This document shows, one piece after another, positions 49,926-64,000 of a stretch of 64,000 nt of DNA. The DNA comes from Sporocytophaga sp. GTDB taxonomy: Bacteria > Bacteroidota > Bacteroidia > Cytophagales > Cytophagaceae. The DNA lies in the NCBI RefSeq assembly GCF_017745095.1, contig NZ_JAGHZZ010000008.1:237830-301829 (forward strand), given 5' to 3'. A program made the translations under genes and the position numbers. The notes under the pieces were generated by a model. The model saw only the letters and a list, made by a program, of their open reading frames with translations. It ran no database searches and was not told the origin of the DNA. The stretch's first letter is position 1. Each line of letters opens with the position of its first letter.

Positions 49926-51956
49926 TCAATGCATTACGGTTATTTTCTTTTTAGTGAATTGATCATCCTTTCTGAGCACCAGAAAGTATGAACCATCAGG
50001 TAAGGAGCTAACATCAACTACTCCTTTTCCACCATTTATATTTATGGATATCTGCACCTTCTGACCCAATGCATCGGTCAATTGGATTGTTGCATCTGAC
50101 AGATCAAAGTCCATTTGAAGATTAAGATCTCCAGTTGCAGGATTGGGATAAATGGTACTATTCAATTCCTTAATATCATGTATACCGGTAGTTATACCGA
50201 CATTGACTGTCACAGGAGCAGAAGTTGATCTGCAGAGTGAAGCATTCGTCACATCCACTGTGTAGCTTCCTGAAGTTGTAGCTATAATGCTGGCACTGGT
50301 CCCAATCTGAGAAAGATCTTTAAACCAATTATAACTTAATCCTGCTCCTGCATTTGCCGTTAAGGTAACGCTTTCTCCTTCCACAAATGTTGTAGGCCCG
50401 CTTGCTGTAATTTCAGCTTTGGGAAAACTATTCACTGTTATTGTAAATGTCTGAGTACTACTACATCCATTGGAAGTATAAGTTGACGTGTAAACGCCTC
50501 CCTGATTTGCAGAGATAGGTGTTAAAGAAACCTCCCTTATACCTGAGGTAAAACCATTGGGGCCAGACCAACTCCATCCTGTTGTAGTTCCAGGTTGTGG
50601 TCCCAGTTTCAATGATCCTCCCTGGCAAATCTGAGCAGTATTCTGTTGTAACCAGGTTCCTCCATCCAGCTGAACGTAAGGAACAATTGAAGGAACTGGA
50701 TTTACTGTTACAGCAATGGCTGCCCTGGGGCCTTCACATCCATTAAGTGTCTGTGACACATAATATGTGGTACTTCCCGCTGTTGCCGTAGAGGGTGTAG
50801 GCGCTGCAGCCGAACCAGTCCCGCCTGAAGCTGTTGTATACCATTTTAATGATGTCCCATTGGCTATTATGGGTGATGCAACGGCATTCTGACAATAAGA
50901 TAGCGAAGTGGTAACCACTGGAGCTGATGTGGTACAGGGCGGAGGTGTCAGGCCACACCGGGCTTTCAGCTCATTTCTAACCAGGGTACCTGAAGGTTTA
51001 ATCTGACTGGCAGTCCAGCCGCCATTCGGACTCGCTCCTGAATATAGTGCTGCTGAACTTTCACTAATATCAGCAACAGACCAGTTACAGTGGCCGATAG
51101 AATTTTTATTTAAAAAGTCCCACCATAATCTGGATTCCGCAGCGTCCACTGTACCATCGCCACTAGCCTCAGTTGTACCGTATTCGGTAACAAAAAGAGC
51201 TATCCCATTATTCATTGCGGTCTGCGCATTATTTCTTAGCCATTGCTTATGTGAAGCAGCGTAATAGTGCAGGGTGTAAGCAATATTGGGTCCGTTTATA
51301 GGATTTAAAGAGGCCTCAACAACTTCCTGTGACCACTTCCGTGTACCGCAAATAATGATATTATCCGGATCATATTGCCTGATTGTAGAAATGACCTGTT
51401 CGTGATAAGGTTTTATGACAGAAGCCCAGGAAACATCCAGAGGCTCATTAAATGTTTCATACAAAACATTAGGTTGATTTCCATAACGCTGCGACATATC
51501 TGCAAAAAATGTTTTGGCAATATTGAGTCTATTTTGCGCTCCATGCTCATGAAAATCAATAATAACGTATATCCCAAGACTTATGGCTGCATCCACTACT
51601 GTTATCACTTTATTCCTTTCCGCAGTAGGATTGGTCTCATAGCCACCACTTGACACTGCCATAGGAATTCTGATCACATTAATGCACCAATCGTCTCTAA
51701 GCCATTTTACAGTATTGTAGGTATAATACTTAGGAAGCCACTGACTCCAATAAAGTGACATTCCTCTCAGTTGAACTGGCGCTCCATTCTTATCAACAAT
51801 TTTATTTCCTTGCACCCGGAGCTGACCGTGCTGTTCTACAAAAGTTTGTCCATGCACATTTACATGGACGTGTGCAAAAAGGATAGCACTGATAAGCATC
51901 ATCTTCAAAACAGGAGGCAGCGCTTTACTAAAAGTTAAATGCAGGTTCTTTTTCAT
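49926..51956 (-). CDS. Secreted GH5 endoglucanase with Ig-like modules and T9SS sorting domain
   Basis: A 676-residue cellulase from the ATG at 51956, which places the signal peptide at the N-terminus; an in-frame ATG at 52022 would add 22 residues and lie near an upstream element. The GH5 domain (about 45-345; probably subfamily 2 by RGMSLYWSQW) has the acid/base Glu in YETFNEP and the nucleophile Glu in FVTEYGTTEASG. Then come an Ig-like module (CQNAVASP... YYVSQTLNGCEG), a Trp-rich module (VPYVQLDGGTWLQ to WSWSGPNGFTSGIREV), another Ig-like module, and a type A sorting domain (STIYPNPATGDLN). It cleaves internal beta-1,4-glucan bonds at the cell surface or outside. Confidence 0.93.
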   Translation of the reverse strand: MKKNLHLTFSKALPPVLKMMLISAILFAHVHVNVHGQTFVEQHGQLRVQGNKIVDKNGAPVQLRGMSLYWSQWLPKYYTYNTVKWLRDDWCINVIRIPMAVSSGGYETNPTAERNKVITVVDAAISLGIYVIIDFHEHGAQNRLNIAKTFFADMSQRYGNQPNVLYETFNEPLDVSWASVIKPYHEQVISTIRQYDPDNIIICGTRKWSQEVVEASLNPINGPNIAYTLHYYAASHKQWLRNNAQTAMNNGIALFVTEYGTTEASGDGTVDAAESRLWWDFLNKNSIGHCNWSVADISESSAALYSGASPNGGWTASQIKPSGTLVRNELKARCGLTPPPCTTSAPVVTTSLSYCQNAVASPIIANGTSLKWYTTASGGTGSAAAPTPSTATAGSTTYYVSQTLNGCEGPRAAIAVTVNPVPSIVPYVQLDGGTWLQQNTAQICQGGSLKLGPQPGTTTGWSWSGPNGFTSGIREVSLTPISANQGGVYTSTYTSNGCSSTQTFTITVNSFPKAEITASGPTTFVEGESVTLTANAGAGLSYNWFKDLSQIGTSASIIATTSGSYTVDVTNASLCRSTSAPVTVNVGITTGIHDIKELNSTIYPNPATGDLNLQMDFDLSDATIQLTDALGQKVQISININGGKGVVDVSSLPDGSYFLVLRKDDQFTKKKITVMH

Positions 51957-52036
51957 TTTTATTGGATTAAGATTAAATACTAAAATGTCCAGCCATTTTT
52001 TCAGTTTAAATCTTCTTTCCAAAAGGACTTCAAAAG

Positions 52037-52072
52037 GTGACCCCTCATTGAAAATATTCTTAAAAGATAATT
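52037..52072 (-). promoter_or_regulatory. GGGGTCAC element upstream of the GH5 gene
   Basis: GTGACCCC at 52037-52044 (GGGGTCAC on the gene strand) and the following AT-rich bases closely match 55274-55310 upstream of the ECF sigma gene, in the same orientation to the downstream gene. It ends 80 bases before the chosen GH5 start. A shared sigma-factor-dependent promoter is possible. Confidence 0.4.
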
Positions 52073-52156
52073 AATTAATCTTAAGGGTTGGTATAGTCAG
52101 ATTTTTGCTGAATAAAAAAAGGAGATTCGGGGAAAACGTATTCTAAAAATGCAGGC

Positions 52157-53590
52157 TTACCTGACAATATTCATATGATAAGTGATCTCATCATTGATCC
52201 GGATCACATAATACCCTATTTCAAGGTCTCTTCCGGATCTGGTCGTGCCGTTCCAATAGCATGGGGAAGATCGTTGATCCACAAGATCTCCTGAGGAAGC
52301 ATATACTTTGAGTGTACCATGCTCTTCAAAATAGATCTCATCGTTTTTGCCGTCCCCATTTGGACTTAGGGTAAGCTCTTCTGACCCCTTCAGGAAATCC
52401 GGGATCATGATAATGGTAAATTCTGTAGAAGTAAGGGTTAGAGCGCTTAATGAAGGTTGGGAGGATGTAACAACACAATAGTAGGAGCCATTGTCAGATT
52501 TTTGCAGCGAAGGGATCTCAAGTACGGGCTCTGCAGTTTGTGTTCTTAACGAATCGTTCTGATACCAGGAAAAAGTAAGTCCTGATATCGATGAGTTATA
52601 ATTAAGAGAAATTTCAAGACGTTGGTTTTCCATTCCTTTATAAGAGGGCGATACCTGTATCGGATTTTGAGGATGGATGGTCCAGCTTCCGAAATTCGGA
52701 TTGGCAGCGGAAGGTGACAAGTCTTCAAAAGTAAAGAAATTTTTATGCAGCCAGCAAAAAGTAAGCTGGTTCAGACCTGATAAATCAGGCAGATCGCTGA
52801 GAAGGTTATTATCAAGAGTTAAGTGGTTCAGGTTTGTTAAAGTACTCAAATTGGGAACAGAAGAAATTTTATTCGTTCCCAGATTTAAATGTACTAAAGA
52901 AGTAAAAGTTGATAAATCTGGCAAAGACGAAATTTGATTAGTATAAGCCGCAAGCAGGGTTAATCCTGTTGCAAGTGAAATATCGGGTATAACGGTCATC
53001 CGATTATCGCCAAAGTTCAGCTCTTTCAACGATGCTGGCATTTTACCAATGGAGGTAAGATTGTTCTCATAGCATGAGAGTTTCTGCAGATTGGATAAGC
53101 CCGAAAGATCCGGAATGGAAGAAAGCTGATTTTTGTAAATGCGTATCTCCTTAATATTTGTCAAGCCGGAAAGATCAGGGAAGGCAGTTATCTTATTCTC
53201 CATCACATTCAATACCTGAAGATTGATCAGTGAATTCAATGCAGGCAGAATAGTAAGTTGATTTCCGGAGGCGTTCAGCTGTGTAAGACCGGTAAGATTG
53301 CTCAGATTCGGAAGTGTGGTTAACTTGTTTTTGAGGCATTGGAGCTCTTTAATTCCGGTAAAGTTTTGAATTCCTTCAAGGCTGGAAATATTTGCTTCAC
53401 TGCAATAAAACACCCCTGTAACGGCAGCAGCATTGGCTGTGATCAGCTCCTGATTTGCATTCATTAAAGATGGATGATTGGTAACAAGGAATTGCCTGAA
53501 GGCCGGATCAGGAATCACCGCCGTTTGGGAGAGGACTTTCGTAACACATACCCCCAAAAATATTCCCAGAAATAGTACAACCTTTTTCAT
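52157..53590 (-). CDS. Leucine-rich repeat surface protein with gliding-motility-type C-terminal domain
   Basis: A 477-residue exported protein. A signal peptide (VVLFLGIFLGVCVTKVLSQ, about 3-21) is followed by about nine leucine-rich repeats (about 65-290) of the form LTxLxLxxNxLxxLPDLSGL, a typical ligand-binding solenoid. Then an Ig-like domain (about 305-390, with SWYQNDS and SGSYYCVV-like cores) and a C-terminal domain starting LTLSPNGDGKNDEIYF (about 408-477), the gliding-motility-associated/T9SS type B signature. It starts three bases after the stop of the anti-sigma gene. Surface display and ligand recognition are inferred. Confidence 0.88.
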   Translation of the reverse strand: MKKVVLFLGIFLGVCVTKVLSQTAVIPDPAFRQFLVTNHPSLMNANQELITANAAAVTGVFYCSEANISSLEGIQNFTGIKELQCLKNKLTTLPNLSNLTGLTQLNASGNQLTILPALNSLINLQVLNVMENKITAFPDLSGLTNIKEIRIYKNQLSSIPDLSGLSNLQKLSCYENNLTSIGKMPASLKELNFGDNRMTVIPDISLATGLTLLAAYTNQISSLPDLSTFTSLVHLNLGTNKISSVPNLSTLTNLNHLTLDNNLLSDLPDLSGLNQLTFCWLHKNFFTFEDLSPSAANPNFGSWTIHPQNPIQVSPSYKGMENQRLEISLNYNSSISGLTFSWYQNDSLRTQTAEPVLEIPSLQKSDNGSYYCVVTSSQPSLSALTLTSTEFTIIMIPDFLKGSEELTLSPNGDGKNDEIYFEEHGTLKVYASSGDLVDQRSSPCYWNGTTRSGRDLEIGYYVIRINDEITYHMNIVR

Positions 53591-53593
53591 CCG

Positions 53594-54676
53594 TTAATAA
53601 ATAATGGTAATGTAACCTTGTCTTATTTCTTTATCTTCCGGTTCTGCAATATACAAATAAGTACCTATTTCAACGTACTCACCTGTCCGGAACCGGCCAT
53701 CCCACTCCTCAGGAACACCTGAAATAACTTTGGTGCCGTACACAACTTTTCCCGATTGATCCAGAATAGTGATCGTTCCGCTTTCTCCTGTCAGGAAAGG
53801 CAATTTCCAATTGCCCAAGCTAGGGTTAAATGTATAATCTTTAAATTCCGGACAAGGTTTTTCATGCACCTCTACCTGCTTCTGAGCTACACATCCATTC
53901 TGGTCTTTTACCTTAACTTGATAAATCCCCTTGGCAAGTCGGTTGTTAAAAGATTCCAAGTTAAAATCATTGCCATCAATGGAATATGAATAAGGTTTTT
54001 CTCCGCCTTTAATAGCCGAAACCTGTATTTGTATACTCCCGTTTTCCTGGTTCCTGCATGATGGCTTCGTATGGACACCAAATGTAATTTCCGGACAGGT
54101 CTTGTCTGGAATTACAGGAGGGGTAGTATTAACCGGCTGCTGCTTTATCAATGAATCTTCTTTCGGCGATGCAACTAAATTTTCTTTAAGCGCTAAATTG
54201 GTATCATGCGGCACTACCAGCATTTTTTCTTTGTGTTCTGTACCGATCATATTTTTTTTGTTTGCTTTATTTTCCGGTAACGTTTCTTCCGGAGATCGTT
54301 CAGCTTTATTTGAATCATATTGATCAACCTGTTTGATAGTTACGGATTTTGGCAATGCTATAATTTCTTTTTCCCTTAAGGTTAAATAATAAATGGTAAT
54401 CCCTGCAAGGATAAGTGCTCCGGCAAAAAACATCAGTATTTTTTTATAAAAGAGAGAAGGCGGCGGTTGCTGAGACAAATCCTGGCCTACTTTTTCCCAG
54501 ATATCCACTAATCCTTTTTCAAAGCTCAGTTCATCCGCTAACTGATGAAGTTGAAGTTGCTCAGCCAGTTCGGGGTTATTGCCAACTTCTTTTTCAAATG
54601 CAAATATCTCTTCAGAAGAAAGGTCTCCTTTAAGGTATTGATCAATCAGATCATATTTTTCCTTATCCAAGCTCAC
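53594..54676 (-). CDS. Membrane anti-sigma factor fused to SprB-type repeat and gliding-motility C-terminal-like domain
   Basis: A 360-residue protein with no signal peptide. The N-terminal cytoplasmic part (about 1-75) has the helical pattern YDLIDQYLKGDLSSEEIFAFEKEV..NPELAEQLQLH, as in Bacteroidota anti-sigma factors. A single membrane span (ILMFFAGALILAGITIYYL, about 80-98) follows. A Pro/Lys/Glu-rich linker leads to a SprB-type repeat (ITFGVHTKPSCRNQENGSI to IYQVKVKDQNGCVAQKQVEV, about 195-275) and a gliding-motility C-terminal-like domain (FNPSLGNWKLPFLTGESGTITILDQSGKVVYG..., about 280-360). It overlaps the sigma gene by four bases. Confidence 0.78.
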   Translation of the reverse strand: MSLDKEKYDLIDQYLKGDLSSEEIFAFEKEVGNNPELAEQLQLHQLADELSFEKGLVDIWEKVGQDLSQQPPPSLFYKKILMFFAGALILAGITIYYLTLREKEIIALPKSVTIKQVDQYDSNKAERSPEETLPENKANKKNMIGTEHKEKMLVVPHDTNLALKENLVASPKEDSLIKQQPVNTTPPVIPDKTCPEITFGVHTKPSCRNQENGSIQIQVSAIKGGEKPYSYSIDGNDFNLESFNNRLAKGIYQVKVKDQNGCVAQKQVEVHEKPCPEFKDYTFNPSLGNWKLPFLTGESGTITILDQSGKVVYGTKVISGVPEEWDGRFRTGEYVEIGTYLYIAEPEDKEIRQGYITIIY

Positions 54677-55242
54677 GATTTGAAAAAGTTTATCAGGTTA
54701 TTTTCTTGTACCAATTTTATAAGCCTTTGCCTGCATTTATAACTTTTGGTCTTTGCTACTCCTTCATTGCTGAACCCCATTTTTTCTGAAATCTGCTTTA
54801 AATTATATCCATTAAACATCGTAAGTTTTAGGAGTTCGCCGCAGGTAGGACCAAGTTCGTTAAATATTTTTTTTATAAGCATCCGCCTCTCTTTTCCGAT
54901 TATTTGATGCAGTAAATCTTCATATTCCTTGTCTTCTGCTACAGAATCAACAAGGACATTTTTTCTGGTGTGACGGGTAAAATGTTTGAAATAAAGATTC
55001 CTTGCAACTGAGTACAGGAAACCGTCAATATCTAGTTCGCTTTTAAATTTACCCGATTTTACCTGCCGATAAAAAACTACTATCGTATCCTGAAAAATAT
55101 CTTTTACATCTTCTTCAGTCCCATTATTAGATAATATAAATTTTTTGATTTTGGGCAAAGAAATTTTATATAGAGCACCCAATGCCTCATTGTCTCTTCC
55201 CTTCGCAATACTATCCAGAATCTCCTTATCCTTTTCAGCCAT
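54673..55242 (-). CDS. ECF-type RNA polymerase sigma factor
   Basis: A 189-residue sigma-70 family protein with regions 2 and 4 only. Region 2 has EEDVKDIFQDTIVVFYRQVKSG and FLYSVARNLYFKHFTRHTR. Region 4 has the helix-turn-helix LKQISEKMGFSNEGVAKTKSYKCRQRLIKLV. The ATG of the next gene overlaps its stop (ATGA), so sigma and anti-sigma factor are coupled. It is divergent from a PorP/SprF gene. Autoregulation is suggested by the upstream element at 55274-55310. Confidence 0.93.
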   Translation of the reverse strand: MAEKDKEILDSIAKGRDNEALGALYKISLPKIKKFILSNNGTEEDVKDIFQDTIVVFYRQVKSGKFKSELDIDGFLYSVARNLYFKHFTRHTRKNVLVDSVAEDKEYEDLLHQIIGKERRMLIKKIFNELGPTCGELLKLTMFNGYNLKQISEKMGFSNEGVAKTKSYKCRQRLIKLVQENNLINFFKS

Positions 55243-55273
55243 GTTTATCTACTTCCCCGTATATGGATCATAT

Positions 55274-55310
55274 GTGACCCCCTATTCAAAAAATTATTAA
55301 AGAAATAAAC
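55274..55310 (-). promoter_or_regulatory. GGGGGTCAC element upstream of the ECF sigma gene
   Basis: GTGACCCCC at 55274-55282 (GGGGGTCAC on the gene strand) with an AT-rich flank that matches 52037-52072 base by base over most of its length. It ends 31 bases before the sigma start codon. An autoregulated promoter is plausible. Confidence 0.4.
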
Positions 55311-55356
55311 TTGTGATTATATAAAGTACTAATTTTAGATTTAGTATAAAAATAGT

Positions 55357-56244
55357 GTGGCGATTATACCTTCTTTAAAGAGTTGTCCAGTTTGTTTCCT
55401 GATAATCTTATTATCGCTTGTATCCCATGCTCAAAACAATTTTCTTTACCCACCGGTTTTTTCTCAATTTTTCAATTATCAATCGCTTGTAAATCCTTCT
55501 GCTACAGGAAGGTATGATAAACTATCCATGCTGGCAGGAGAAAGGCTCAATGCCGGTTATTTTAGTAGAATACGTACATTTTTAGCAATTGGTGAATATG
55601 CCAGAAAAAAAGATGAAGGCTCAGGTCATGGCTTTGGACTAATCTTTATGAACCATAAAGAGGGAAGTCTGTTTTCATTCAACAGAATGTATGCTCAATA
55701 TGCTTATCATCTGGCTCTTTCTGAAAATTGGAAAATTTCAGGAGGTGTATCTTTAGGATTGCTTAATCTGTCTGTTGATCCTACACCTACCTCACAGGGA
55801 GTTTCATCTTATGCTCCGGATGGAAGTATAGGTTTTCTTTTTTACAGGGATAAAGAACAGATTGGCGTTTCTTCCTCCCAGATTTTTAATAGATCCATTG
55901 AACTTCTTTCACAACCCTTACCGATAAAAAGGTATTATAAATTTTTATATTCCAGAAAAATGGAGCTCACCCCTCACACCTCTTTTACTCCCTGGTTTTT
56001 TTATACAATGAAGAAAGAAAGATCAGAACTTGATATTACGGGTTCTTTTTTAATTGACGATCTGTTTTTTCTTGGATTAAGTTATCAATTACAAAGAGGG
56101 ACCGTTTATTTTTTAGGCATCAGAGATTTTTCTTTTTTAGAAGGCTTAACAGATTTGACGGTTTCTTATAGTTTGCCATGGCCATCGATTAATTTGGGAA
56201 ACATACAGACTTTTGAAATTGTCCTGGCATATAAACTGAAATAA
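55357..56244 (+). CDS. PorP/SprF family T9SS-associated outer-membrane protein
   Basis: A 295-residue protein starting at a GTG, the only codon that keeps the signal peptide (CPVCFLIILLSLVSHAQ, about 10-26). The mature protein is a predicted beta barrel. Early it has the family pattern FSQFFNYQSLVNPSATGRYDKLSMLAGERL, then GFGLIFMNHKEGSLFSFNRMYAQYAY and SGGVSLGLLNLS. It ends with a strand of aromatic residues (FEIVLAYKLK). In flavobacteria SprF is needed to secrete the adhesin SprB, and PorP/SprF genes often sit beside type B cargo genes. It diverges from the sigma gene. Confidence 0.88.
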   Translation: MAIIPSLKSCPVCFLIILLSLVSHAQNNFLYPPVFSQFFNYQSLVNPSATGRYDKLSMLAGERLNAGYFSRIRTFLAIGEYARKKDEGSGHGFGLIFMNHKEGSLFSFNRMYAQYAYHLALSENWKISGGVSLGLLNLSVDPTPTSQGVSSYAPDGSIGFLFYRDKEQIGVSSSQIFNRSIELLSQPLPIKRYYKFLYSRKMELTPHTSFTPWFFYTMKKERSELDITGSFLIDDLFFLGLSYQLQRGTVYFLGIRDFSFLEGLTDLTVSYSLPWPSINLGNIQTFEIVLAYKLK

Positions 56245-56701: not shown

Positions 56702-57238
56702 CTAAAAGCTAATCTCAGCTTCTTCTTCACCATTTTCAAAAGTTAGAATCTCTTCCTCTTTACCATTCATATTTATATGAACAAAATTATATTGATCAAA
56801 AATATGATTTAAGAAGGAGTTGTGGATCTTAATTTGTTTTACAGATGCAATTGGATCATTGGACGACATCTCTATGATCAAGACCGGTTCTCCCAGTTTA
56901 AAGGAAGCTTGATCCCAGGCGAGAGACAGGATTGCTAAATTAACTTTTTTCGTATTCACGGTAAGATGAAAATGATAATTCATGTAACCTTGAATTAGCT
57001 TTTTTACTTCATCAGGGAATGGAGCTTTATAAAACTGTGTCAAGTTTATCTCTTTCTTATAATGCTTGATCAACGCATTCTGAAGATCATCGCCAAACAT
57101 ACGAGTGTTCATGGTAGCTTTACCTTTGGAAAAGTTTATCATTGATTGGGTCATTCTTGTATCATGACCATAGACATGATAAACAAGTAACCAAAGGAAA
57201 AATAACAGAATTGGTTTCAACACGGGAGTAGTACGCAT
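56702..57238 (-). CDS. DUF6702-like exported protein
   Basis: A 178-residue protein with an N-terminal signal peptide (PILLFFLWLLVYHVYGHD, about 8-25). The pattern of a short beta-rich domain with MTQSMINFSKGKATMNTRMFGDDLQNAL and a closing ILTFENGEEEAEISF is like the DUF6702 proteins of Bacteroidota, whose function is unknown. It lies 88 bases downstream of the GH43 gene on the same strand and may be on that transcript. Confidence 0.6.
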   Translation of the reverse strand: MRTTPVLKPILLFFLWLLVYHVYGHDTRMTQSMINFSKGKATMNTRMFGDDLQNALIKHYKKEINLTQFYKAPFPDEVKKLIQGYMNYHFHLTVNTKKVNLAILSLAWDQASFKLGEPVLIIEMSSNDPIASVKQIKIHNSFLNHIFDQYNFVHINMNGKEEEILTFENGEEEAEISF

Positions 57239-57326: not shown

Positions 57327-59753
57327 TCACAGTTTTTGTACCCTTTTCGCTTCCAATCTTCCATTTGTGTATCTGATCATTAGTGTATAAAGTCCGGAAG
57401 CGAGGTCACTTCCAAAATCAATGCTTTCTCCTTTTCCGACTTTCCCATGCGCAAACAGAACCAATCCCCTTATGTCTATTACTTCTATACTGTTCGCTTC
57501 ATCCTGAACTGTGACATTGAAAGAAGTTTCAGCCGGATTAGGAAGTATAGTTGCTAAAGAACGTGCTTCGAATGGAGAAACCGTATTAGTGATCGTATTT
57601 ACAGTGACTTCCAGAGTGCCCTTGCTTTGACATCCAGAAGCATCTGTATAGGCAGCAACATAATTCCCAGCCTGATTCTCCTGTATGGAATTTATAGTAA
57701 CCTCGCGGGTTGTGGCAGTGAATCCGTTAGGTCCGGTCCAGGACCATGTTCCCACTGTCATGGGATGGGGGCCGAAGCGGACCGTACTTCCTGCATTCAC
57801 AGATTCTGAAGATGTTTGTATCCATGCTCCCCCGTCGATCTGTACATAATGCGTGACCGTTGTAGGTGAACACACCGTGACTGTAAATGTACCCATACTT
57901 GTACATCCTTCTGTATTTTTGAATGTAGCTACATAATTACCTGCCTGATTTTGCTGGATGTTATCCAGTGTGATCTCACGGTTTGCGGATGTAAAACCTT
58001 CGGGTCCTGTCCAGCTCCATGTACCACCGCTTGCTGGCTGAGGTCCCAGTACTACTTTTCCTCCGACATCTGTTGAAGCAGTTGCTCCTTGCACCCAGGC
58101 TCCTCCATTGAGCTGGTAATAAGGAACGACAGTTGTGACACTTGAACAGTCATTACCGTCTGTCCTGACCAGACTGAAATCATCTACATTTACCCAGTTG
58201 CCTGCATTTGCATCAGAAAATACCCCCACCTGAATTGTTCCATTCGTCACATTAATGTTGGAGATAGTTACTTTCGTCCAATTTCCCATGGACCTGTTGA
58301 TCGAATAATTCATTTCACTGCCTCCGAAATTCTTTGCATAGATATTCGCTGCTTTCTGACCACCGCTGCTCTTGACCCAGGCAGACAAGGTGTATGTTCC
58401 GTTCGGCAAAGTGATATTTTGATATATGGTAGACTGGTAAGCAGAGGAACTACTTTGAGACAAGGCATAACGTCCAGGGTCATGACTTCCTCCGGTATTA
58501 CCTCCAATTATACCGGTTTTTGACCATCCAGTCACGCTGGTTACGGAGATCCGGTCCGCTTCGAAGTTAGGGTTCAAAACATAATTGTTACCGCTTCCTA
58601 CAGACCAGGTCCCCTCGGCGGCATCGATATTCCATTGACTGAGCGAATTAAATACCGGTGTATTCCCATTAAAGGAAATAGGTATCCATTGATTATATCC
58701 TACGCCGTTTCCAGCGAAGTCTGCCCAGCGGTCTCCACCAAATATGACGAAAGATCCCTTCGTCCCCTTTACTTCTACTGCCAGGCCACATTGTGTAACA
58801 TGTGAATAATCTGCACTAGTGCCCTGTATAACAAATTCTGAAGAATACGGACCGAAAATATTTTTTGCTGTAATGCAATAGGTCTTGGATGTATTCCATC
58901 CGTGAAGATCGGATGAGCAGAAATAATAGGTCCCATTCTGTTTGAACATGATGCTCCCTTCGCGTCCTCCTGATCTGCTGTTATAAATATTTACAGCCGG
59001 TTCTGCATTCAGAAAATCAGAAGTTCGTAACGCAGATACATACAAGTGAGATCTTCCTTCCCTGTTGCTGTAAACCAGATACGCCTGACCATCTTCATCG
59101 GTATAGACAGATTGGTCACCGGTCATATCGTTCACCACATTCTGGATCTTTGTTTGGGTGTGGTGGTATGTGAATCTTCCATTTGGCGTATTGCAAGTAG
59201 CAAACATCAGCCCATCGTTAAGCTGGGAGAGCAACACATATTTTTTTGTTGTGCGGTTGTATGCCACACCCACACGCCCGATCCAGCCTCCATTGATTTC
59301 CGAGGGTGTCAGCGCATATCCTTCAAACTTCCAATTGGTAAGATCCGTGGAAGAGTAACAGGTGATACCCTGAAAGGCAATATCTCCGTTCTTACCTGAA
59401 TAAGGATCGTTGTAATAGGTGACTGCGCCTCTGTACTTAACCCCGTACCAGTAATATGTATTTCCAACTTTTAGCGTACCTCCGCCCTGAGAATAAATCG
59501 GATTTCCCTGAGTATCTTTCCAGAAGACATCATTTTGTATCTTCTGACCATACACGTTCGAAAAAGTAACTAGGAGAAATGCTATAAATGTTAGCGATAT
59601 ATGCTTTCCTATAGAAACAGCTTTTATAAAATCCTCATAAATAAAAAGCCGAATCGGAAAACGATTATCATAAGAGAACATTTTCTTGATCATTGATTGG
59701 GTCTGCTCTCTTTGAACATCAATCAGACGAAGACTATGTAATGTTTTTTTCAT
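57327..59753 (-). CDS. Secreted GH43-like glycosidase with CBM-like, Ig-like modules and T9SS sorting domain
   Basis: An 808-residue protein. The hydrophobic signal (ISLTFIAFLLVTFSNVYGQ) begins only at about residue 52, after an unusually long leader, so the start may be one of the later ATGs. The five-bladed propeller (about 73-395) has KIQNDVFWKDTQGNPIYSQGG, the DMTGDQSVYTDEDG strand and SGGREGSIMFK, consistent with the three acidic GH43 residues. A CBM4_9-like jelly roll (about 400-545), two Trp-rich Ig-like modules and a type A sorting domain follow. Likely acts on pectin side chains (arabinan or galactan); the subfamily is not certain. It is 19 bases downstream of the PL11 gene. Confidence 0.82.
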   Translation of the reverse strand: MKKTLHSLRLIDVQREQTQSMIKKMFSYDNRFPIRLFIYEDFIKAVSIGKHISLTFIAFLLVTFSNVYGQKIQNDVFWKDTQGNPIYSQGGGTLKVGNTYYWYGVKYRGAVTYYNDPYSGKNGDIAFQGITCYSSTDLTNWKFEGYALTPSEINGGWIGRVGVAYNRTTKKYVLLSQLNDGLMFATCNTPNGRFTYHHTQTKIQNVVNDMTGDQSVYTDEDGQAYLVYSNREGRSHLYVSALRTSDFLNAEPAVNIYNSRSGGREGSIMFKQNGTYYFCSSDLHGWNTSKTYCITAKNIFGPYSSEFVIQGTSADYSHVTQCGLAVEVKGTKGSFVIFGGDRWADFAGNGVGYNQWIPISFNGNTPVFNSLSQWNIDAAEGTWSVGSGNNYVLNPNFEADRISVTSVTGWSKTGIIGGNTGGSHDPGRYALSQSSSSAYQSTIYQNITLPNGTYTLSAWVKSSGGQKAANIYAKNFGGSEMNYSINRSMGNWTKVTISNINVTNGTIQVGVFSDANAGNWVNVDDFSLVRTDGNDCSSVTTVVPYYQLNGGAWVQGATASTDVGGKVVLGPQPASGGTWSWTGPEGFTSANREITLDNIQQNQAGNYVATFKNTEGCTSMGTFTVTVCSPTTVTHYVQIDGGAWIQTSSESVNAGSTVRFGPHPMTVGTWSWTGPNGFTATTREVTINSIQENQAGNYVAAYTDASGCQSKGTLEVTVNTITNTVSPFEARSLATILPNPAETSFNVTVQDEANSIEVIDIRGLVLFAHGKVGKGESIDFGSDLASGLYTLMIRYTNGRLEAKRVQKL

Positions 59754-59772: not shown

Positions 59773-62403
59773 TTAAAGTTTTTGTACTCTTTTCGCCTCC
59801 ACTCTTCCATTGATATATCTGATCATTACTGTATAAAGCCCAGAAGCCAGATCACTTCCACAATCAATACTTTCTCCTTTTCCAACTTTTCCGTGAGCAA
59901 ACATAAACGAGCCCTTCATATCTATTACTTCTATACTTTGCACTTCTTCCTGAACCGTGACGGTGAAAAACGTTTCAGCCGGATTAGGAAGTATAGTTGC
60001 GGAAGAACGCGCTTCTAATGGTGAGACCGTATTAGTGATCGTATTTACATTAACTATGAGAGTTCCTTTGCTTTGACATCCGGAAGCATCATTATAGGCA
60101 GCAACATAATTCCCGGCCTGATTCTCCTGTATGGAATTTATAGTAACCTCTCGGGTCGTAGAAGTGAATCCGTTAGGTCCTAACCAGGACCATGTTCCCA
60201 CTGTCATGGGATGGGGGCCGAAGCGGACCGTACTTCCTGCATTTACAGATTCTGAAGATGTTTGGATCCATGCTCCTCCGTCTATCTGTACATGATGCGT
60301 GACCGTTATAGGTGAACACACCTTGACAGTAATTGTACCTGTACTTGTACATCCTTCAGCATTTTTGAATGTAGTTACATAATCACCTGCCTGATTTTGT
60401 TGGATGTTATCCAGTGTGATCTCACGGTTTGCGGATGTAAAACCTCCGGGTCCTGTCCAGCTCCATGTACCACCGTTTGCTGGCTGAGGCCCCAGTACCA
60501 CTTTTCCTCCGGCATCTGCCGTAGCAGTTGCGCTTTGCACCCAGGTTCCTCCATTGAGCTGATAATAAGGAACCACGGCTGTAGGTGTACATGTTGATTT
60601 ACCTACGATTTTAATATTTGGCGGAGCAGGTGCTTTCATTCCAAAACCGAGATAGTAATCAACCATATGGGACTGATAATATCCCCTATTAGTCATGCTA
60701 TTTCTATATCCAGGGTTATGAGGCAAGGTATAGATCCGTTCACTTGTAGGAGTAATTGTTGTAAATACCAACAGGCTTCGACCATCATCAGAAGAATATA
60801 CCGCTTCTTCTCGCCAGTCGCCCATTATATCTCCATAACATCCGGGGACGTTCCTGGCCCATTGTACGTTATTCCTGAAATTATATAATCGGTCTTCATA
60901 CTGACCAGTATAATTCCACTTGGTCATTTTGTTATTATCCAGATTCTCACTCAATAAATCTCCGTCCCACCAGATCCTAAGGTTAGGATAGGAATCAGGA
61001 GTGCCTGAAGATGTTCTTGTTCCGGATACATTGTACAATCCGTCAGTGAAAGTATGAAATTCATAACCGCTGTATCTTGGATCAAGATCTCCTGCATAAC
61101 CTCTTGCCATATCATATACAGCGTCCATGAACTGACTCTTCAATATTTTCCCTGTAAGTGCATCATAATATACCCATCCAAGTTTTGAAGGATTGTCTTG
61201 CTGAATAAGATACCCCTCCAGCCCTGGTCGATTAGGATCCAGATCCCCAATATGAAACCGGTCTCCATGAATAACACCTTGTGATCCGAGATCCCATAGC
61301 AATGTACCGTTTGGTCTCAGTGCGAATCCGAAAGGAATAATTTCGTCTTTCCCGTCTCCATCCAGGTCCGTGATCCTAAGATTGTGTCCGTCAGGACAAC
61401 CTCCACTTCGTTTCCATTTCCAGTTCATGCTCAGAGATCCGTTGGCAAGTGTGTATGAAGTTACCATCATATTAAATCCACCCTTTCCGACACGGTTTTT
61501 AGACGACCAAACAATGCTCGGGTTGGTGCCGTCGAGATAGCCAATTCCCATCTGTCCGTTCATAGGGCCGTCTGCAATAAAATCGGTTGGAACTGAAGCT
61601 CGAGCCATTTCTTTACCTGTCATTCCATCCAACACTGAGATGAATTGTCTGTTGTTGTTGCTCTCACTAAGTACACTTCTGTCTCCAAAAACACTTCCAT
61701 TGGCAGTGCGGATGACCACTTCCGCTTTTCCATCATTGTTCAAATCGTACACCATCCAATTGTCTCCATGTCCTGGGTCGAGGGTAGCAGAACCAGGTTC
61801 TATCCGATCTTTATTTACACTATTGGGACCGCAATTGTATTGCCATAAGAAGGTACCGTTATTTAAATAGGCTTCCACCATGATTTGCTGAGCCGGATCA
61901 TTAGGATGTCTTGTAAAGACATAATCATACTCGCCATCTCCATTCAAATCTCCCACATGTATAAGGCCTATGTAGGTATTGGGTAAATTATTAATAGGTA
62001 CTCTTACACAAGCCATCGCATTCGTTCCCTGCACATGAGTGTTTACATTTACCATAGGAGATTTAGTTTGTTCCACTCCGTTTAATACAGCAGCAACATA
62101 ATAGGTACTGTTTGTATTTGTGTTATCGGTAAAATTGGATACATTTAAATTAGAAGCAACCCGTGTATTTCCTCTGTATACATTATATCTAATGTCTGTA
62201 TTAAATTCTTGCCCGAGAATCCTCCAACTCACAAAGACCTCATTACTGCTCTTCCTGACAGCCACAGTACCGCGGCCCAGATTCTCCATCCACCTTTGTG
62301 CCTGAGACGCATTCATCAGTGCGAAAAACATAATGAACAAGAGTATTAATTTCTTCCCTTGTATGGAAGGTGGAAATCCGCTTGAGTGTTCGGCTTTTTT
62401 CAT
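59773..62403 (-). CDS. Secreted PL11-type rhamnogalacturonan lyase with Ig-like modules and T9SS sorting domain
   Basis: An 876-residue protein. A signal peptide (KLILLFIMFFALMNASQAQ, about 18-36) is followed by the PL11 beta-propeller (about 37-620) starting RWMENLGRGTVAVRKSSNEVFVSWRILG. It has Ca-binding-type loops GDLNGDGEYDYV, DLNNDGKAEVVIRT and ITDLDGDGKDEI. It cleaves rhamnogalacturonan I by beta-elimination. Two Trp-rich Ig-like modules (about 630-800) and a type A sorting domain (ILPNPAETFFTVTV, ending VEAKRVQKL) follow. It heads the operon with the GH43 gene. Its last 270 codons are nearly the same as those of the GH43 gene. Confidence 0.93.
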   Translation of the reverse strand: MKKAEHSSGFPPSIQGKKLILLFIMFFALMNASQAQRWMENLGRGTVAVRKSSNEVFVSWRILGQEFNTDIRYNVYRGNTRVASNLNVSNFTDNTNTNSTYYVAAVLNGVEQTKSPMVNVNTHVQGTNAMACVRVPINNLPNTYIGLIHVGDLNGDGEYDYVFTRHPNDPAQQIMVEAYLNNGTFLWQYNCGPNSVNKDRIEPGSATLDPGHGDNWMVYDLNNDGKAEVVIRTANGSVFGDRSVLSESNNNRQFISVLDGMTGKEMARASVPTDFIADGPMNGQMGIGYLDGTNPSIVWSSKNRVGKGGFNMMVTSYTLANGSLSMNWKWKRSGGCPDGHNLRITDLDGDGKDEIIPFGFALRPNGTLLWDLGSQGVIHGDRFHIGDLDPNRPGLEGYLIQQDNPSKLGWVYYDALTGKILKSQFMDAVYDMARGYAGDLDPRYSGYEFHTFTDGLYNVSGTRTSSGTPDSYPNLRIWWDGDLLSENLDNNKMTKWNYTGQYEDRLYNFRNNVQWARNVPGCYGDIMGDWREEAVYSSDDGRSLLVFTTITPTSERIYTLPHNPGYRNSMTNRGYYQSHMVDYYLGFGMKAPAPPNIKIVGKSTCTPTAVVPYYQLNGGTWVQSATATADAGGKVVLGPQPANGGTWSWTGPGGFTSANREITLDNIQQNQAGDYVTTFKNAEGCTSTGTITVKVCSPITVTHHVQIDGGAWIQTSSESVNAGSTVRFGPHPMTVGTWSWLGPNGFTSTTREVTINSIQENQAGNYVAAYNDASGCQSKGTLIVNVNTITNTVSPLEARSSATILPNPAETFFTVTVQEEVQSIEVIDMKGSFMFAHGKVGKGESIDCGSDLASGLYTVMIRYINGRVEAKRVQKL

Positions 62404-63319
62404 TTTGATCTAGGTTTATTTGTTATCATTTATAGTAAAGACACTACATCACATTTACTATTATGCCATTGATCAAATCGACCTGACTCATTCCTTCTTG
62501 AATCAATTGCTGGTAGGAGACATTCAACAAAATGAGAAGTAACGATATGAGGAAAAAATTTTTGAGAAAGTATAATTGAATATGTTTTCTTATATAAAAT
62601 TTTATCTATGAATTTATACTATAAATAAAAGGTATATAACTCAAGCGTTATTTAGATTGTATCTATAAGAAATGAGAAATTAGTAAAGAGGAAAAGTAAT
62701 AAAGATAAAAAATAAAAAATAATGAGTAAAACAACGAAACAGATTCCCATCATGTATTAATCAACTCTTATTCTTTTGACAAGATTGATAATTAAAAGAG
62801 TGTAAAATTTTATTTTAAATTCAAAAATAAAATTCTCTAGACTAAAGATGTACAGAAATAAAACTTAATATCATAAGAGTAATAACAATAAATGTGAAAA
62901 TGATCCTTATAACTCCAATGATTATTTTCGAATGAATAATAGTTCTTATCATATTGAAAGCTTATAGTAAAGTACATTCTTTATCAGATCCTTATTCTAC
63001 TACAATTACTGGAAACAATGGTGAACATTTTTTTATGAGAATTTAAAATTGACTCACTTACCTTTAATTAATTATGTTTCTCTTACAGTTATGTTAAGCA
63101 AAGGTGAACATGGTTTCCAATATTTTTTTTCTAGTCATAACTTTTTATAAAAAGGTTGAAAGATATTAGCTATGTTTATTGTGATACAATCAGATAGAAA
63201 TTAGAAGTCGGATTTAAACAAACCTATTATTTGTATAGTCAATATGATGCCGACATTCAGGAACCAGTTTTATTAAAGCGTAATCATGGTCAAAGTATTA
63301 AGTCAAAGTAATTGCATCT
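62404..63319. other. 916-base non-coding AT-rich region with palindromes
   Basis: No gene is recognised. It holds a perfect 11-base AT hairpin (62806-62816 with 62824-62834). GGAAACAATGGTGAACAT at 63011-63028 and GGTGAACATGGTTTCC at 63103-63118 share GGTGAACAT and carry GGAAAC/GTTTCC ends in inverted order, bounding about 108 bases. A promoter for the PL11 operon should lie in the first part. A short plus-strand frame near 63200-63310 has no start and may be a decayed gene end. Confidence 0.45.
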
Positions 63320-64000
63320 TTATTGCTTATTGATGTTATATTTCAATCCAATCTCAAATGAATTTCCCCATAGAGGATTGGAACCCAAAAAAGACGTATT
63401 ATAAGTCATTAGAATGGAAAGAGGGTTATTCTCCTGATTCAATATTATTGTACCTAAGTAAGATACTCCTCTTGGCCTGAAATACAATGCCCCTGCTTCC
63501 AGGAATCCACCATAAAAAAAGGTTAACGCTCCAATATATTGATCTGGCAAGCTGGGCAGGCTTCTCCACAAAAAGTATGATTTGAGATCCAGATTTTCAC
63601 TTACTGTTTTTTCAGCACTAAAATGCATATTATAGAATCTCTCAAACCGCACCTTACCAGAGGTTACCGTACCTTGGGCATTAAAAGCCTGAATAGCGGC
63701 CATACCAGCAGAGATTTTCCGGTAATTGAAACCAAGACCTATATTCCCGTCTAAAACAGTGAGGGAACCTGCTGCAGACGGAGTGGAGAAATTTATACCT
63801 GCCAACCCCAGAGAAGCTCCTCCTGAAATATCCACTTCAGAAGATAAATGCTCTTTCACAGCATAATTTCCATAAGCTCTGGAACTGGATATAAAGGGAC
63901 CTTCTTTTTCATTAAAAAAGATAAGCCTTGCAAGATGGTCAGGCGCATTTTCTTTTCTCCATACTTTATGACCTGAAGCCATAAAAGTGGAAACATCACT
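63320..64000 (-). CDS. PorP/SprF family T9SS-associated outer-membrane protein, 5' end cut by the right edge
   Basis: At least 226 residues, open through base 64000, so signal peptide and N-terminus are missing. It aligns with the protein at 55357: LARLIFFNEKEGPFISSSRAYGNYAV and ISGGASLGLAGINFS against LIFMNHKEGSLFSFNRMYAQYAY and ISGGVSLGLLNLS. The remainder is a beta-barrel pattern ending FEIGLKYNINKQ. It is presumably a partner of a type B T9SS cargo outside the window. Confidence 0.85.
   Translation of the reverse strand, partial: SDVSTFMASGHKVWRKENAPDHLARLIFFNEKEGPFISSSRAYGNYAVKEHLSSEVDISGGASLGLAGINFSTPSAAGSLTVLDGNIGLGFNYRKISAGMAAIQAFNAQGTVTSGKVRFERFYNMHFSAEKTVSENLDLKSYFLWRSLPSLPDQYIGALTFFYGGFLEAGALYFRPRGVSYLGTIILNQENNPLSILMTYNTSFLGSNPLWGNSFEIGLKYNINKQ

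Follow-up and report, generated by a model that had tools for sequence, protein, structure and literature searches.

The window, a stretch of 64,000 nucleotides from Sporocytophaga sp. (assembly GCF_017745095.1, contig NZ_JAGHZZ010000008.1, positions 237,830 to 301,829 of the forward strand), carries adjacent genes for an extracytoplasmic function (ECF) sigma factor, an anti-sigma factor, a leucine-rich repeat (LRR) surface protein and a PorP/SprF-family outer-membrane barrel. There is hardly any doubt that sigma factor, anti-sigma factor, LRR or other cargo protein and PorP/SprF barrel form a conserved module, and the four genes probably encode a transenvelope ECF signalling module built from parts of the type IX secretion system (T9SS). 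An initial annotation of the window, made from its letters alone, had placed the sigma, anti-sigma and LRR genes in this order on the minus strand, with a divergent PorP/SprF gene, and the coordinates of the open reading frames (ORFs) agreed with this (Table 1). The anti-sigma ORF overlaps the sigma ORF by 4 nt, and the LRR ORF begins 3 nt after the anti-sigma ORF.

The genome encodes ten full-length paralogues of the window anti-sigma factor, giving 11 anti-sigma genes in total. It also contains 31 PorP/SprF genes scoring above the cut-off, of which the 11 lowest-scoring each lie next to a different one of these anti-sigma genes. All 11 cassettes possess a sigma, an anti-sigma, a cargo and a PorP gene. 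Nine of the cargos are LRR proteins, L048 gave a weak LamG-like match and L043 showed Ig-like matches only (loci are designated by L and genomes by G numbers). The initial annotation had allowed that the gene order might not be conserved outside this strain; the set was found 11 times here and at 61 loci in 18 relatives, all selected by anti-sigma match, which gave 72 loci in 19 genomes. The sigma gene adjoins the anti-sigma gene in all 72. A PorP gene lies within 700 nt in 69 loci (64 divergent, 5 on the same strand), and 70 encode a T9SS-type cargo, which bears LRRs in 59. The loci without a near PorP are L139, where the contig start cuts the PorP side, L143 and L151; the sigma gene of L139 spans two reading frames. 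Among 59 relatives searched, members were found in 15 of the 19 genomes of the family and in four others. In a sample of 395 genomes of the phylum, from each of which at most five candidates were scored, full-length anti-sigma matches (E 1e-15) occurred only in this genome, and 11 other genomes gave partial matches only. An alignment of the sigma factor led to 23 loci in named genomes, eight of which, from Cytophaga, Sporocytophaga and other Cytophagales records, had a PorP gene; the 15 more distant ones had none within about 7 kb.

Several variants of the layout were seen. Locus L033 (2683-9104) is a related locus on one strand with a sigma gene, an anti-sigma gene with an SprB-like domain and no C-terminal domain (CTD), an RCC1-repeat cargo gene, a PorP gene and a PD40-repeat gene. 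The RCC1-repeat cargo has a strong CHU_C match, and loci L166-L168 of three sister genomes show the same layout, domains having been scanned in L033 only. The anti-sigma variants of L156-L159 and L163 have a CTD-like domain and no SprB-like domain. Those of L156-L159 adjoin cargo and PorP genes on one strand, with the sigma side of L159 cut off, and L163 had no PorP match. At L144 (9014-13154) and L145 the LRR part and the SprB-CTD part of the cargo are two adjacent genes, and PorP and LRR genes each have a sigma-type site of their own. The anti-sigma genes of G003 (L110, L111, L112 and L168) are split into two reading frames, which may be assembly errors in this metagenome-derived genome.

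The analysis of the anti-sigma family covered 69 full-length members; the three split genes L110-L112 were left out. The window protein consists of a helical N-terminal domain (residues about 1-68), a membrane helix (about 75-100), a linker (about 98-191) and an outer half made up of a four-cysteine SprB-like domain (194-275) and a CTD-like domain (281-360). In the family the linker measures 106.3 +/- 8.8 residues (range 90-133), with a mean column identity of 19% versus 40-43% in the conserved N-domain. The four cysteines were present in 61 of the 69 proteins, with the CTD-like domain at the C-terminus. The best 19-residue hydropathy reached at least 1.6 in 57 of them, the lowest value being 1.29. 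An AlphaFold2 model of the window protein (mean per-residue confidence, pLDDT, 63; predicted template modelling score, pTM, 0.32) was ordered at both ends and disordered from residue 91 to 191. Structural matches of this model had middling Z scores, 9.0 at best, and T9SS-CTD folds were among them, Ig-like folds being common; the modelled C-terminal fold is at most consistent with a T9SS CTD fold.

The initial annotation had assigned gliding-motility-type C-terminal domains to both the anti-sigma factor and the LRR protein. On the anti-sigma factor CHU_C scored above its cut-off; on the LRR protein it scored below (Table 1), yet an alignment of the family shows the domain clearly. The anti-sigma factor also gave a weak SprB repeat match (21.7 bits, cut-off 28), and the type A profile TIGR04183 scored 22.3 (cut-off 23) on residues 217-266. 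No match to TIGR04131 was found at E 0.1 for either protein, the presence of this model in the library being unconfirmed. No curated anti-sigma profile of Pfam or NCBIfam scored above its cut-off on the window protein, a putative binder and inhibitor of the sigma factor. Its outer half resembles the C-terminal part of the cargo proteins. The NGDG-type motif is a defining motif of the type B CTD. Searched as N[GN]D[GN], it occurred in 44 of the 70 cargos and in the last 100 residues of none of the 69 anti-sigma factors; since it is absent there, the anti-sigma CTD may remain periplasmic.

The LRR protein has a signal-peptide-like N-terminus, LRRs, an Ig-like domain and a C-terminal type-B-like CTD with the PNGDG motif (SPNGDGKND). 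Among ten proteins scanned, CHU_C exceeded its cut-off in the LRR cargos L045 and L047 and in the LamG-like L048. The AlphaFold2 model of the window PorP (pTM 0.73) showed a FadL-like barrel with 14 predicted strands. A sequence search found no solved relative of PorP; structure comparison did find one, the best match being a chain (8gl6_F) from the entry of a T9SS translocon (Z 25.9, root mean square deviation 3.0, 259 residues aligned); we take this chain to be PorV. The window PorP has no cysteine near its C-terminus. Any cysteine in the last 20 residues occurred in only 3 of 70 cassette PorPs, and the median tail past the end of the profile was one residue.

Co-divergence of the parts was determined from distance matrices for 65 of the 69 full-length loci (PorP within 700 nt, clear cargo CTD), thinned to 32 non-redundant ones. 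The anti-sigma CTD gave partial correlations of 0.31 with PorP, 0.26 with the cargo CTD and 0.23 with its own SprB part, versus -0.06 with the sigma factor and -0.07 with its own N-domain. In each of 1000 subsamples the PorP value was above the N-domain and sigma values. With the 11 paralogues of this genome alone, the value for anti-sigma CTD and PorP was 0.41.

A gene for a glycoside hydrolase family 5 (GH5) enzyme lies 134 nt beyond the LRR gene, outside positions 52,037 to 56,244, to which the initial annotation referred. Its best match in the PDB was the endoglucanase 5ihs (E 3.7e-107). A two-box pattern, GGTCAC-N16-GGRWAG, precedes the sigma gene and the GH5 gene, both on the minus strand. 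In genome G002 an orthologous cassette (L104; sigma 67% and LRR protein 64% identical to those of the window) has the pattern before the sigma gene and before the next gene, which encodes a GH26 mannanase. The neighbours of this cassette are GH26 and GH44 genes, and GH5, which the initial annotation had counted as part of the circuit, was therefore rejected as a conserved member of the module. The control of the cellulase by the sigma factor, also proposed there, gained support from the predicted promoter common to both genes, and it is very probable on these sequences that the sigma factor drives its own operon and GH5. In this genome the pattern has six matches at spacers of 15-17, four of them with spacer 16, and all except the sigma and GH5 sites lie inside ORFs. 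G002 also has six matches. Four of these fall within 10.7 kb and include sites before the sigma gene, the GH26 gene and a gene for a T9SS protein of 970 aa that contains Ig_7 domains; the remaining two lie within ORFs. As four of the sites had served to write the pattern, only the two further G002 sites are independent. The evidence lies in where these sites are, rather than in how many there are. The same is true of the pattern AATRRGGGGTCAC, which has two exact matches in the genome, the sigma and GH5 sites. Enrichment of the 8-mer GGGGTCAC alone was also considered and discarded as weak; its count of two sites was reached in 8 of 100 shuffles.

Cassette sigma genes are preceded by a GTTAC/GTTTAC-like box and, usually 16 nt further on, by TGTA, CGTA or TGTC. 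A two-box match was present before 52 of the 72 sigma genes (shuffles: mean 3.4, maximum 12), and the spacer was 16 in 45 of the 52. The pattern GT?TTAC-N15-17-[TC]GTA, derived from these promoters, was scanned in 80 regions. Counted only in intergenic sequence just before genes, it occurred 59 times versus once for the reversed pattern, with 37 sites before sigma genes, 2 before PorP genes and 20 before others. Cassette regions contained 58 such sites in 852 kb overall and 7 in the 132 kb of this genome's, and 175 kb of this genome lying outside the cassette regions contained none.

The genes behind the 20 other sites were classed, except those of L119 and L127. Ten were scanned with Pfam; nine look like carbohydrate-active enzymes (CAZymes) and one (L136, 621 aa) gave no match. 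The scanned targets comprise GH10, GH30C with CBM6/35, two PL1, RGL11, two Sortilin/BNR propellers and an esterase; the 755-aa target of L136 matched GH30C barely below the cut-off. One of the propellers matches GH74 xyloglucanases (PDB 6p2l, E 1.7e-221), and the GH10 gene of L042 was identified via L192. The target genes of L096, L097, L105, L114 and L116 were classed by length and N-terminus, and the site-bearing genes of L144 and L145 are LRR cargos by profile. The initial annotation had suggested checking for co-occurrence with cellulases. A predicted enzyme target lies near 4 of the 11 cassettes of this genome (GH5 in the window, RGL11-GH43 at L041, GH74-like and GH10 at L039 and L042), and most other regions have none. 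As the predicted targets are mostly secreted polysaccharidases, polymer sensing is plausible.

Target sites were also compared with the promoters of their own sigma genes by box and spacer, using 13 target rows from which same-length repeats in sister genomes had been left out. Of 39 features 30 agreed, with 18.6 expected (permutation p 0.00024); with one row per cassette p was 0.00088. The pattern CGTTACTT-N13-ATGTC, written from two sites before the sigma gene of the second cassette and the RGL11-GH43 pair, has no other match in the genome. The promoter variants differ between paralogues, and a genome could therefore hold several partly insulated circuits.

Table 1. Features of the cassette and its surroundings in the window (positions count from the first letter of the window)
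Feature	Position	Strand	Evidence
PorP/SprF-family outer-membrane barrel	55357..56244	+	PF11751 119 bits; TIGR03519 111 bits (cut-off 90.55)
ECF sigma factor	54673..55242	-	TIGR02937 62.8 bits (cut-off 42.9)
Anti-sigma factor	53594..54676	-	CHU_C 32.0 bits (cut-off 27); role inferred from position and architecture
LRR surface protein	52157..53590	-	LRR_4 and Ig-like matches; CHU_C 21.7 bits (cut-off 27)
GH5 endoglucanase, predicted output	49926..52022	-	PF00150 203 bits; Ig_7 domain; type A CTD TIGR04183 42.9 bits
Predicted ECF promoter of sigma operon	55252..55279	-	GGTCAC-N16-GGGAAG; conserved in L104
Predicted ECF promoter of GH5	52015..52042	-	GGTCAC-N16-GGAAAG
Predicted promoter of RGL11-GH43 pair	62519..62544	-	CGTTACTT-N13-ATGTC; common to sigma gene of second cassette
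RGL11 rhamnogalacturonan lyase, predicted output of second cassette	59773..62403	-	PF21348 247 bits; promoter
GH43, 19 nt after RGL11	57327..59753	-	PF04616 62.6 bits; spacing
PorP/SprF gene of second cassette, cut by window edge	63320..64000	-	Locus L041

For the sigma factor, the Pfam region 2 match (23.4) was slightly below its cut-off of 24, and TIGR02937 passed. The listed TTG start of the GH5 gene overlaps the predicted promoter, so that the ATG at 51956 is the likelier start. A second complete cassette (L041) spans the right edge of the window, its sigma, anti-sigma and LRR genes lying immediately outside, and GH43 is probably on the same transcript as RGL11. A small DUF6702 gene (56702-57238, minus strand) is located between the PorP gene and GH43.

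The gene set, its conservation, the domain anatomy of its products, the sharing of predicted promoters and the co-divergence of the parts were all computed, and a mechanism can be drawn up from them. The binding of the sigma factor by the anti-sigma factor, the docking on PorP, the ligand and the direction of the signal are what we infer. The LRR protein would leave the cell as a T9SS cargo of type-B-like character and stay on the outside, attached to a PorP/SprF barrel of its own. Seated in the inner membrane, the anti-sigma factor would retain the sigma factor in the cytoplasm, and its linker of about 106 residues would cross the periplasm and place the cargo-like SprB-CTD module at the barrel or its cargo. 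An encounter of the LRR protein with its polymer, or a change in how the protein is loaded on the barrel, would alter this contact, and the sigma factor would be released to transcribe its own operon. In some cassettes it would also transcribe a nearby gene for a secreted polysaccharidase, GH5 here and RGL11-GH43 for the neighbouring copy. That the cue is a polymer or linked to export seems reasonably likely; for the docking of the anti-sigma CTD on PorP or the cargo the chances are about even. In a tentative version, with somewhat less than an even chance of being correct, the anti-sigma factor mimics cargo. Anchored in the inner membrane and spanning the periplasm, it would dock with its export-signal-like domain on the dedicated shuttle, where the loading of cargo or the binding of polymer outside would be read directly.

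A number of observations count against such a circuit. At L143 the 1.7 kb beyond the sigma gene hold a 458-aa ORF and no PorP gene, and at L151 the PorP gene is 2.9 kb away. LRRs as a class are not, to our knowledge, known polysaccharide binders. PorP correlates with the sigma factor too (0.38), and the co-divergence therefore partly reflects shared history. Twenty of the 72 sigma genes lack a promoter match. Three promoter patterns (GGTCAC-N16-GGRWAG, AATRRGGGGTCAC and CGTTACTT-N13-ATGTC) were composed after sites that they describe had been seen, and their totals are little higher than those of the controls or no higher at all: 6, 6, 1 and 1 versus 3, 5, 3 and 2 reversed for the GGTCAC pattern in four genomes, 5 versus 14 for AATRRGGGGTCAC (an AATRR pattern) with one mismatch, and 2 versus 3 reversed for the CGTTACTT pattern. 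The total for GT?TTAC in the 80 regions was likewise 125 versus 111 reversed. In G002 the fourth clustered site, 327 nt upstream of a small ORF, is unassigned, and no promoter site precedes the GH44 gene next to L104. The 20 other sites fall in only 18 of the 80 regions, and many represent one gene across sister genomes. All three features match the own sigma promoter in only 7 of the 13 target rows, and in L133 none does. In this genome, the GH5-like gene neighbouring L044 lacks a site, and the neighbours of L040 and L046 are a PAS histidine kinase and a TonB-dependent receptor, respectively.

Part of these findings would fit a mere coincidence of neighbourhood, in which the glycosidases are not sigma targets and polysaccharidase genes are simply abundant nearby. 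These genomes are rich in secreted CAZymes, according to the part of PMC6247017 available, the neighbouring enzyme differs between orthologous cassettes, total pattern counts are near those of the reversed controls and most regions have no target site. The placement of the sites (59 vs 1 and 58 vs 0), the resemblance of the variants (p 0.00024) and the four clustered G002 sites make this explanation very improbable. The cassette could also be a plain pair of ECF sigma and anti-sigma factors that directly detects envelope stress or an oligosaccharide in the periplasm, LRR protein and PorP being only regulated parts of an adhesin. Sigma, anti-sigma and cargo genes look like one operon, as would fit the LRR protein as an output, and the sigma-type sites of PorP and LRR genes in L144 and L145 point the same way. 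The anti-sigma CTD, however, co-diverges with PorP and the cargo CTD and not with its own N-domain, and the outer half is related to the end of the cargo, so that a plain pair is unlikely.

Two further explanations take the cargo-like outer half into account. As a secretion-load sensor it might gauge, within the periplasm, the traffic through the T9SS or the cargo still awaiting export, rather than a polymer outside, enzymes being made only if export works. Its resemblance to the cargo C-terminus and the absence of the NGDG-type motif (0 of 69, versus 44 of 70 in cargos), with which it may stay periplasmic, would suit this role, as would the requirement of each of five conserved type B motifs for SprB secretion, reported in the consulted part of PMC12618676. 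A general sensor would nevertheless not need 11 paralogues with a cargo and a barrel of their own, or outputs of distinct enzyme families, and a load sensor is considered rather doubtful. Alternatively, the anti-sigma factor might keep its anchor in the inner membrane and yet itself be exported through the T9SS, its SprB-CTD sensing polymer outside in the manner of RsgI. The linker is long enough to span the periplasm and its length is kept without conservation of sequence; the CTD-like domain is at the extreme C-terminus, and T9SS-CTD folds were among the structure matches. The lack of the N[GN]D[GN] motif in all 69 anti-sigma CTDs argues against such display, as does the lack of a carbohydrate-binding Pfam domain in the window anti-sigma factor, and a substrate tethered to the membrane would presumably obstruct the translocon. 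Display of this kind is thus quite improbable.

Among the papers listed in literature searches, some of which matched too widely to help, none was found to describe this set of sigma factor, anti-sigma factor, LRR protein and PorP. The proposed transenvelope module is comparable to several known systems. As in FecI-FecR-FecA signalling and ECF/SusCD polysaccharide loci (in part PMC10766802), an ECF sigma factor, a single-pass anti-sigma factor and an outer-membrane barrel would relay a cue from outside. Unlike in these systems, the barrel of the cassette is a FadL-like PorP/SprF protein instead of a TonB-dependent transporter, and the anti-sigma factor has a T9SS-CTD-like module; Pfam scans of the window proteins gave no match at E 0.1 to a FecR domain or a TonB-dependent receptor. 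On the most economical interpretation, a pair of T9SS cargo and shuttle takes the place that the TonB-dependent receptor has in classical surface signalling. In RsgI, a protein of a Gram-positive envelope, the sensor is part of the anti-sigma factor, whereas the putative sensor of the cassette is a separate LRR cargo beside the barrel. In the window anti-sigma factor no Pfam match at E 0.1 was found to the RsgI N-terminal domain or to a carbohydrate-binding domain. The likeness to SigI-RsgI of Clostridium thermocellum, as far as outlined in PMC10766802, lies in the presence of several paralogous pairs of sigma and anti-sigma factor, whose enzyme regulons are distinct.

The SprB-SprF locus of Flavobacterium johnsoniae also combines a type B cargo with a PorP/SprF gene, according to the portions available of PMC12618676, PMC12635249 and PMC9143113; the cassette adds the sigma/anti-sigma pair. 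The SprF of gliding has a periplasmic C-tail with a Cys-X-Cys motif linking it to GldK (PMC12635249, in part), which the cassette barrel lacks. In the PorA-PorXY-SigP system of Porphyromonas gingivalis a CTD protein likewise acts upstream of a T9SS-linked ECF sigma factor. Unlike the cassette, this system uses a two-component system and regulates T9SS genes, and the accessible part of PMC7712824, on which this comparison is based, describes no CTD-bearing anti-sigma factor.

If the circuit is true, several classes of enzyme gain a candidate sensor, receptor and promoter, T9SS shuttles acquire a new function, and the circuit could yield polymer-responsive promoters for enzyme production. If cargo mimicry is also true, a secretion carrier would have become a receptor, present many times in parallel under promoters that differ. 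Within the same family, an ECF sigma factor is reported to control chu_1276, and cellulose use, in Cytophaga hutchinsonii (Wang 2019, as cited in PMC12016534 and PMC10766802), and gene deletion in this species is reported in the former. Crystalline cellulose is digested by both C. hutchinsonii and Sporocytophaga myxococcoides, although, according to the abstract of PMC6247017, neither encodes the polysaccharide utilization loci that many other members of the Bacteroidetes have. Counted with one family model, SusD_RagB (PF07980), there are 3 SusD genes here, 2 in G014 and none in G010, and the cassettes number 11, 5 and 5, respectively. As such loci are reported to be absent from these two species and SusD_RagB genes are few, the cassette circuits could fill the role of polysaccharide utilization loci, and under cargo mimicry their copies would take the place of SusCD-type sensing in the cellulolytic members of the Cytophagaceae.

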